From Alkalihalobacillus sp. CinArs1 (GTDB taxonomy: Bacteria; Bacillota; Bacilli; Bacillales; Guptibacillaceae), in the NCBI RefSeq assembly GCF_947387515.1, contig NZ_CANDOB010000002.1, positions 124,001-188,000 of the forward strand: a stretch of DNA of 64,000 nt. Reading direction: 5' to 3'. How positions within the stretch are numbered: position 1 is the first letter of the stretch; each line of letters starts with the position of its first letter. Under the pieces are notes generated by a model. That model searched no databases. It saw only the letters and a list, made by a program, of their open reading frames with translations, and was not told where the DNA came from. Of this stretch, positions 2,522 through 4,547 are shown piece by piece. The position numbers and the translations under genes are program-made.

Positions 2522-2614
2522 TGCAATGATTTAATCCTTCAGATCACGATTTTGAAGGTGAAGTGCTCTTCCTGATAGAAAAGAAAGGGTATGACGTGAA
2601 AGGAGAGATCTAAC

Positions 2615-3145
2615 ATGGAGGCAAGAATAAAAGTGGTACCATATGAAGAGGCAGAAGGGAAACTAAAGGACCTTTATGAGGCATTCAACAATGAAATGGC
2701 CAATATATTGCGCGTGCATTCTTTAAATCCTCGTTCTCTTGAAGCACATTTGAAGTACTACAAAGTCATTATGTTTGCTGAGTCGCCATTATCACGAAGG
2801 GTAAGAGAAATGATCGCAACGGTCGTCTCAGTAGAGAATGAGTGTTTTTACTGAATGGAACATCATGGGGCGGCGCTCCATTTCATTACGAAAGATCGTG
2901 AACTAGTAGAAGGGATAAAGAAGAATTATCGAGAGCTGGATTTAGAAATGAAGGAGCTAGCAATACTGGATTACGCTGTTAAGCTTACGAAAAAGCCGAG
3001 CAGTGTGACGGACGAGGATGTGGCGGAATTAAAAGAAATAGGGTGTATCGATCGAGAAATCCTCGATATTTGTCAGATTGCTTCTTACTTCAACTTTGTG
3101 AACCGAATGGCAGAGGGGCTAGGGGTTTCCTTAGAGCGGCGATAG
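2615..3145 (+). CDS. AhpD-like peroxidase-related protein with in-frame UGA (candidate selenoprotein, CxxU)
   Basis: Read through the TGA at 2852-2854, the frame encodes about 176 residues of the carboxymuconolactone decarboxylase/AhpD superfamily, close to the usual size of its peroxidase-related branch. The first part ends VSVENECFY at residue 79, the TGA is codon 80, and the frame resumes MEHHGAALHF. The family motif is CxxCxxxH, so the stop falls exactly on the second cysteine (C77, U80, H84). Both halves keep family character, and reading frame and codon use are unbroken. A hairpin with features of a bacterial SECIS lies 10-27 nt after the TGA. AGGAGA lies about nine bases before the ATG at 2615. 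The gene is divergent from arsRBC. A nonsense mutation or sequence error (TGC or TGT to TGA) is the alternative. No sel genes are in this window. Confidence 0.7.
2865..2881 (+). promoter_or_regulatory. Candidate bacterial SECIS hairpin
   Basis: AUGGGGC (2865-2871) pairs with GCUCCAU (2875-2881), seven pairs including one G-U, leaving the triloop GGC. The first loop G is the 18th base after the UGA. Bacterial SECIS elements typically have a short upper stem, a small loop with G in the first two positions and 16-37 nt between UGA and that G. All three conditions are met. UGAAUGGA at the stop could also pair with UCCAUUUCA (2877-2885) as an alternative longer stem. Confidence 0.55.
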
Positions 3146-3246: not shown

Positions 3247-3342
3247 ATGGGATATGGTTACGGCAGCGGGTTCGCTCTAATTGTTGTGCTGTTTATTCTC
3301 CTTATCATCGTAGGTGCAGCTTTTGTTGGAGGCGGGTACTAA
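3247..3342 (+). CDS. YjcZ-family small sporulation protein
   Basis: A 31-residue protein with an [10 protein letters not shown] start, a single hydrophobic segment [16 protein letters not shown] and a glycine-rich end FVGGGY. This layout (Gly/Tyr head, one membrane helix, GG-Y tail) is typical of the YjcZ/YhjR group of tiny spore coat-associated or membrane proteins of Bacillaceae. A good ribosome binding site (GGAAGGGAGG) lies upstream of the ATG. It stands alone between the AhpD-like gene and the desaturase. Sporulation control is expected from the family, but I could not assign a sigma factor promoter. Its presence supports a spore-forming host. Confidence 0.8.
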
Positions 3343-3476: not shown

Positions 3477-4532
3477 TTATTTCTTAAAGAGTTTGCGTGG
3501 TAAGATCGATCGTGGGTTCAGTTTGTTTCCCAGTGATCCGAAGCCATTTCCACTGTTTGGATCAACAAGCTCATTGTGCTCAAAATAAACACGAGGCGTT
3601 TTCCAAAGTGCGATGAGCGCTCTCGTCATCGGCATTTCATGATAGCGATCAGGCCACATGTCTTTAATGTGCTGTTTAACGAGCGGATAATATTTTGGGC
3701 TCATACCAGGGAACAAGTGATGTTCTGTGTGGTAAGAGAAGTTAAAGTGAATCTTATCTACCCATTTTGGAACGGTAACCGTCAAGCTGTTAGCAAGTGG
3801 GTCGTTCACAGGGGTCAATGGATTCAAACGATGGTTTGTTGAAATGTAAGCCATAACGATAAAGTTTGCGATCAACAATGGAATAAAGAATGCAAAGATC
3901 CATTTTTCGAATCCCATGATGAATAAGAGTCCGATCCATGTTACCCATGGAAGAACAACTTGTAGCCAGACTTCTGTCTGCTTTCCTGATTTGAATTCTT
4001 TAATGTATACAAAGAACATTTTCATCGAATGTGCAGTGAACTGAACAGTAAGTGATGCAAAGCTAAAGAATGCTCTGATGAATAATGGCAGTCTATAGAT
4101 CCAACGGAAGATCTTCATCTTCGAGATCTTCTCGAGCGTTGGCCATGCATCAGGGTCATTCTCATCATGTTGTGTGTGCACATGGTGGTTCATATTATGC
4201 CATTTACGCCATAATTTTGGTCCAGTACTTAACGGAAAGAAGGCGATTGCACCAAGGGTGTCTCGAAGCCAAGGCTTACGTACAACTGTTCCGTGCAAAA
4301 TTTCGTGACCGAGAAACCCAAGTCCAGCAAAGCTTGCACCGATTACAACTGAGAAAACTAAGTTGATGAGTGGATGCAAGTTAAACAGTCCTATGATCAG
4401 GAAGCTGGCAACTGTAATCAACAAGTATATGAGACCGCCGAATAATCGGCTAGGTACGGGTTTAAAGGCATCCTTTGGCATGTGTTTCTTCACACGTGCC
4501 GCATACCAACTGAATGAGTGTAGATCTTTCAC
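3477..4532 (-). CDS. Membrane fatty acid desaturase
   Basis: Introduces double bonds into membrane lipid acyl chains. Three histidine clusters that hold the di-iron centre are visible: HEILH (about residue 100), HNMNHH (about 135) and HTEHH (about 275). Hydrophobic hairpins lie between them (LIYLLITVASFLIIGLFNL, later LLFIMGF and FAFFIPLLIANFIVMAYI). This is the Pfam FA_desaturase layout seen in B. subtilis Des and DesA-type enzymes. At about 351 residues the size is normal. A GTG at 4532 is preferred because AAGGTGAT lies at correct spacing; a TTG 15 bases further upstream lies within the ribosome binding region. A paired direct repeat about 100 bp upstream may be a regulator site. Cold induction through DesK/DesR, known in B. 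subtilis, is possible, but no desK/desR lies here. Confidence 0.88.
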   Translation of the reverse strand: MKDLHSFSWYAARVKKHMPKDAFKPVPSRLFGGLIYLLITVASFLIIGLFNLHPLINLVFSVVIGASFAGLGFLGHEILHGTVVRKPWLRDTLGAIAFFPLSTGPKLWRKWHNMNHHVHTQHDENDPDAWPTLEKISKMKIFRWIYRLPLFIRAFFSFASLTVQFTAHSMKMFFVYIKEFKSGKQTEVWLQVVLPWVTWIGLLFIMGFEKWIFAFFIPLLIANFIVMAYISTNHRLNPLTPVNDPLANSLTVTVPKWVDKIHFNFSYHTEHHLFPGMSPKYYPLVKQHIKDMWPDRYHEMPMTRALIALWKTPRVYFEHNELVDPNSGNGFGSLGNKLNPRSILPRKLFKK

Positions 4533-4547
4533 TAAATCACCTTCCAA

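Follow-up and report, generated by a model that had tools for sequence, protein, structure and literature searches.

When an AhpD-like coding region contains a TGA triplet at a position where its relatives carry a catalytic cysteine, does the triplet end the gene, or is it read as selenocysteine (Sec)? This question is raised by a locus in the stretch of DNA analysed here (the window: 64,000 nucleotides, bases 124001-188000 of contig C2, from a host genome of 4.03 Mb). Translation of window positions 2615-3145 on the forward strand, with TGA as a residue, gave one frame of 176 residues, closed by a TAG stop codon at 3143-3145, in which the sole TGA is codon 80 (2852-2854). The initial annotation had described this TGA as the only interruption of the frame, falling at the second Cys of a CxxCxxxH motif (C77, U80, H84). 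Its coordinates and counts are correct, and the residues around codon 80 read C77-F-Y-U80-M-E-H-H84. The first residue of the CxxU motif, Cys77, is encoded by TGT at 2843-2845 and His84 by CAT at 2864-2866, both on the forward strand. A likely ribosome-binding site, AAGGAG, lies at 2600-2605 (+), 9 bases upstream of the ATG; a promoter scan found no promoter-like site upstream of the gene on the same strand.

The read-through protein scores 149.5 bits against the profile of peroxidase-related enzymes TIGR01926 (cut-off 81.8); it also matches Pfam CMD (41 bits, cut-off 23) and barely exceeds the cut-off of the AhpD core profile TIGR00778 (29.2 versus 27.8 bits). It is not a member of two related AhpD-type families of (seleno)proteins, reaching 49.8 bits against the 175 bits of NF041238 (AhpD_rel_CFYUT) and 14.3 bits against the cut-off of 110 bits of NF041047 (GSU3128 family). 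An AlphaFold2 model made with 34 sequences (pLDDT 96.4, pTM 0.91) predicts a fold whose top solved matches are 3c1l, 6k40, 2prr, 2pfx and 2oyo (best TMq 0.91-0.92), and the same five structures head the eight found by sequence (106 to 78 bits). These 'peroxidase-related' proteins have their fold in common with the window protein (TM about 0.91); 3c1l and 2pfx carry Cys at the residue aligned with its predicted Sec.

The 34-sequence alignment has five invariant columns of note for the active site: E65, C77, Y79, C/U80 and H84. With these residues the window protein has the catalytic Glu, the CxxC/U pair and the His of an AhpD-type proton relay. Two such relays are given in the accessible portion of PMC3141380, namely Glu36-Cys48-Tyr50-Cys51-His55 in PA0269 of P. 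aeruginosa and Glu118-Cys130-His132-Cys133-His137 in M. tuberculosis AhpD, and both have the five-residue spacing of the window protein with Cys where the latter would have Sec. M. tuberculosis AhpD was likened to it by published relay spacing alone, and the PA0269 structures 2ijc and 2o4d have a lower TM to the predicted fold (0.68-0.71). His84, whose spacing matches that of His55 in PA0269 and His137 in M. tuberculosis AhpD, would by analogy be the proton-relay histidine.

To see what relatives carry at codon 80, which the initial annotation had proposed to be Cys or TGA, we ran a locus search, which found 137 relatives, and retained the best 80 loci, dropping a second match in L075 that formed an 81st row. 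Codon 80 is TGA in 26 of these best 80 of 137 loci and TGC or TGT in the other 54; the in-frame TGA thus stands opposite the conserved Cys of homologues, as in known selenoproteins. The exchange tracks selA: among the best 80 of 137 loci, the SelA profile passes its cut-off in 24 of the 26 TGA genomes versus 1 of 53 with Cys loci (53 genomes for 54 loci, L074 and L077 sharing one). Searched in two sets, the TGA genomes gave 20 of 22 and 4 of 4, and the Cys genomes 0 of 18 and 1 of 35. Both TGA genomes without selA above the cut-off, L012 and L013, are MAGs, and the lone genome with a Cys copy and selA is that of L078. Fisher's test gives p = 7e-17 for this association, a value that is too small because the genomes are kin. 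In a tree of 82 rows, Sec copies fall on one side of a single branch (support 99/91) and Cys copies on the other. With a remote, very long-branched paralogue as its sole outgroup, the tree does not give the direction of the Sec/Cys change. Separately, the host genome carries a distant Cys-type paralogue with a CxxC motif at C2:29410-29901 (L106; 29% identity), and weak matches of this kind are found in 13 of 13 congeners.

Could the TGA have arisen from the second Cys codon by nonsense mutation, in a pseudogene, or through a sequencing error? A single base change from TGC or TGT to TGA would suffice, and a close homologue is confined to two of the 14 genus genomes, one of them the window's. 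Against this explanation, the same TGA is present in the 26 loci described above (best 80 of 137), among them all 16 of the most similar, L002-L017. Moreover, comparison of the window gene with the nine copies L002-L010 gives pN values of 0.09-0.25 before the TGA and 0.11-0.26 after it, versus pS values of 0.69-0.92 for the stretches on both sides. Purifying selection acts on both sides of the TGA. The varied inactivating mutations in relatives that the initial annotation had named as evidence of decay are replaced here by a shared TGA in close relatives and by selection that continues past it. A random nonsense mutation, already rated there as the less likely origin, becomes extremely improbable in view of these data and of the frozen hairpin codons described below.

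Decoding of UGA as Sec calls for dedicated machinery, and a search of the same genome for selA, selB, selD and a selC tRNA had been recommended, with absence of the machinery as grounds for rejecting a selenoprotein. All four genes are in the genome, inside C2:1304125-1311778. SelA scores 559.6 bits (cut-off 267.9), SelB 365.3 bits (cut-off 242.25) and SelD 412.7 bits; the tRNA-Sec is above the Rfam gathering score and has the anticodon TCA according to ARAGORN, the Rfam match being no proof alone because 5 of 14 control genomes also pass that search. The SelD gene (C2:1309065-1309991; L116, read in L123) itself has one in-frame TGA, in the context GG-U-GCK, and a predicted hairpin places a three-base loop at bases 18-20 after this TGA, the same distance as in the AhpD-like gene. 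From these features SelD is a candidate selenoprotein in its own right. Between selB and selD lie genes for an ABC transporter of the phosphonate type, with its binding protein, permease and ATPase (L123:8628-15809, C2 about 1304627-1311808); as a guess, it might import a selenium compound.

SelA is above the cut-off in 14 of 14 genus genomes and the selenoprotein gene is absent in 12 of them. Formate dehydrogenase was considered as a further selenoprotein of the host genome and rejected, since the Fdh-alpha match has no internal stop. Because selA is present throughout, the gene is mostly missing and the host's own formate dehydrogenase has no in-frame stop, other selenoproteins probably exist in the genus.

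A hairpin follows the TGA at 2865-2881 (+): a stem of seven pairs (2865-2871 with 2875-2881) closed by the loop GGC (2872-2874), with the letters ATGGGGC-GGC-GCTCCAT. The stem starts after a gap of ten bases, which puts the first G of the loop at base 18, within the range known for bacterial SECIS elements. The seven pairs, the triloop and both distances had been described in the initial annotation, and both sequence and folding agree with it. A stem-loop right after the TGA with a small apical loop containing G is the bacterial SECIS feature as described in the accessible part of PMC1088965. We assessed the hairpin by folding, by synonymous recoding and by pair counts. Taken by itself its geometry is weak evidence, because the two strands of the window together contain 2841 TGA triplets, and 6 of them, the gene's own included, have a seven-pair stem (counting G-T as a pair) 8-14 bases downstream whose loop is three bases long and begins with G; the hairpin alone was therefore rejected as proof, five other triplets being equally good. 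Full pairing of the window hairpin arises in 1.8% of 500 synonymous recodings of the same peptide, and on its own this copy is moderately unlikely by chance. The coincidence goes far beyond chance, however, because the same TGA recurs in 26 of the 80 best loci of 137 and the remaining 54 have a Cys codon.

Comparison with relatives shows more constraint on the hairpin than the peptide imposes. Mean pairing is 6.4 of 7 in 27 Sec sequences (the 26 loci and the window) versus 3.1 of 7 in the 54 Cys loci, of which two form 6 of the 7 pairs; restricting the Cys loci to the 25 with HHG retained at residues 83-85 gives a mean of 3.2 of 7. For 21 of the 27 Sec sequences, the observed pairing is reached in at most 5% of 500 synonymous recodings, and it is not significant for the other six (L011, L012, L014, L015, L073 and L080). 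In L073 and L080 folding places the hairpin at a shifted position, and the lowest-energy fold differs from the hairpin in L015 and L017. The clearest sign of constraint is codon choice: across ten bacillus copies (the window and L002-L010), with M and W codons left out, 81 codons are invariant in their residue and only 8 use a single codon in all ten, namely codon 79 just before the TGA, codon 83 just before the hairpin, and codons 84-89, those of the hairpin itself. Covariation, which the initial annotation had suggested looking for among homologues, is also present. Across all 27 Sec sequences (21 distinct), 89.8% of cells pair, 13 cells are changed on both sides where shuffling gives 5.8 on average, and the covariation score of 0.330 compares with at most 0.072 for slid versions; none of 500 shuffles reaches the observed percentage paired, number of cells changed on both sides or covariation score. 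Two other counts from the same 27 sequences show no excess over shuffles: 2 of the pairs have a change on both sides, and 6 additional pair types occur.

These results bear on two further explanations. In the first, the UGA would be read through by another tRNA (Trp or near-cognate) to yield a protein without Sec, which at a low level is compatible with the sequence alone. Such readthrough gives no account of a TGA that occupies the catalytic Cys position in 26 of the best 80 loci of 137 and tracks selA across their genomes, or of a hairpin constrained more tightly than the peptide requires, and we regard it as very hard to credit. In the second, two proteins would be made, one stopping at the TGA and another of 96 residues reinitiating at the adjoining ATG at 2855, as the separate entries 2615-2854 and 2855-3145 in the ORF list might suggest; this has next to no likelihood, as a conserved second start is disfavoured by codon 81 being ATT in L003, ATA in L006 and ACT in L016, the active site C77/U80/H84 would be divided, and all 9 Cys loci in the 34-sequence alignment have an uninterrupted frame.

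By its sequence, then, the gene is almost certainly intact and would encode an AhpD-like selenoprotein in which UGA is read as Sec. This was the interpretation offered in the initial annotation, and it is supported by a frame under purifying selection before and after the TGA, by the exchange between TGA and Cys codons, by the Sec machinery, by a hairpin that is both constrained and covarying, and by the predicted fold.

The gene is a new example of a known selenoprotein family and no new kind, because a 2026 review (PMC13188914, in its accessible portion) already lists an 'AhpD-like protein, TIGR01926, CxxU'. AhpD-like selenoproteins with CxxU had been noted as known from other bacteria, and the profile in that review is the one matched here. 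The example accession given there also appears under COG2128 in the accessible text of PMC9312934; that of PMC2398784 counts 299 'AhpD-like 1' COG2128 CxxU selenoproteins and that of PMC1088965 27 AhpD-like sequences. As far as these sources go, the known proteins (Sargasso Sea 2005; GOS 2008; PMC9312934, PMC13188914) share TIGR01926 and CxxU with the window protein, and their bacterial SECIS lies directly after the UGA, as in the window gene. What distinguishes the window gene is its host, a Guptibacillaceae-type bacillus (with the relative L002), and its site between arsR and a desaturase gene. A non-exhaustive search of the accessible open-licence PubMed Central literature found no naming of an AhpD-like selenoprotein in Bacillaceae.

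How might such a protein work? We propose that SelB, together with Sec-tRNA(UCA), would recognise the hairpin at 2865-2881 and decode the UGA at 2852-2854 as Sec80. The product would be a helical protein of 176 residues with the active site E65-(x11)-C77-F-Y79-U80-xxx-H84. In AhpD, the second Cys of CxxC is the residue that reacts first. By analogy, the more reactive residue would be U80: activated via a Glu65/His84 proton relay, it would attack a hydroperoxide or a disulfide; C77, the likely resolving Cys, would then resolve the product as a selenenylsulfide, which a cellular thiol system would reduce. We lean towards this AhpD-like redox mechanism with some confidence, and infer from the same likeness that the physiological role is likely AhpD-type peroxide or disulfide chemistry.

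The neighbours of the gene might at first suggest a functional link to arsenic. All on the reverse strand, the divergent neighbour is an ArsR-family regulator (2134-2496; Pfam HTH_5), followed by the arsenite efflux pump ArsB (825-2141; Pfam ArsB, 733 bits) and a protein with the LMW-PTPase fold (375-803; Pfam LMWPc), which we take to be an ArsC-type arsenate reductase; on the other flank lies a fatty acid desaturase gene, also on the reverse strand (3477-4547; Pfam FA_desaturase). An ORF at 3247-3342 (+) encodes 31 glycine-rich hydrophobic residues and presumably resembles YjcZ-type small sporulation proteins. Upstream of arsR, at 2500-2521, is the palindrome TATATAAG-N6-CTTATATA. A like palindrome precedes arsR in 10 of the 10 congener stretches listed, with a mismatch in one (L135), and nine of these stretches are without the selenoprotein gene. 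The palindrome is therefore best read as the likely operator of arsR itself; that it also acts on the selenoprotein gene would be guesswork.

Does the gene travel with the ars genes? Window ArsC, ArsB and ArsR queries match beside the homologue in one congener, L002, in addition to the window's own copy (L092), and ArsR-like matches of 40-41% identity lie near the homologues in L054 and L075. No matches to the window ars proteins were found near the homologues in L003-L017, in flanks of 6 kb or shorter, and according to ORF lists the neighbours of these copies vary. Conservation of the gene with ars genes was thus not seen across lineages. Membership of an ars operon was considered and rejected: other Bacillota copies have no adjacent ars matches and sit in differing neighbourhoods, and nine congeners have the ars set without the gene. 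An arsenic-responsive AhpD-type selenoenzyme, its gene taken under ArsR control and serving metalloid or thiol stress, is accordingly an unlikely reading; it is based on the gene being next to arsR in two species of a single genus and absent from that site in nine others.

Within the genus, the close homologue with one TGA is found in the window's genome and in G001, which appears to be the same assembly as L002 (selA being at the same place). Nine of the 12 congeners without the gene keep the desaturase-arsR-arsB-arsC order with no match to the gene in between; in G006 and G009 the stretch next to the desaturase gave no ars match, and in G012 the desaturase itself was not matched. Because nine congeners have the site without the gene, the gene has been gained or lost at this site, and the empty congener sites offer a local case of selenoprotein gene gain or loss. 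Together, these analyses recover an intact gene where the ORF list gives two fragments and a pseudogene could be suspected, and they record a predicted AhpD-like selenoprotein across several genera of bacilli. Across the family they reveal a natural contrast, in which Sec copies mostly occur with selA and Cys copies almost always without it.
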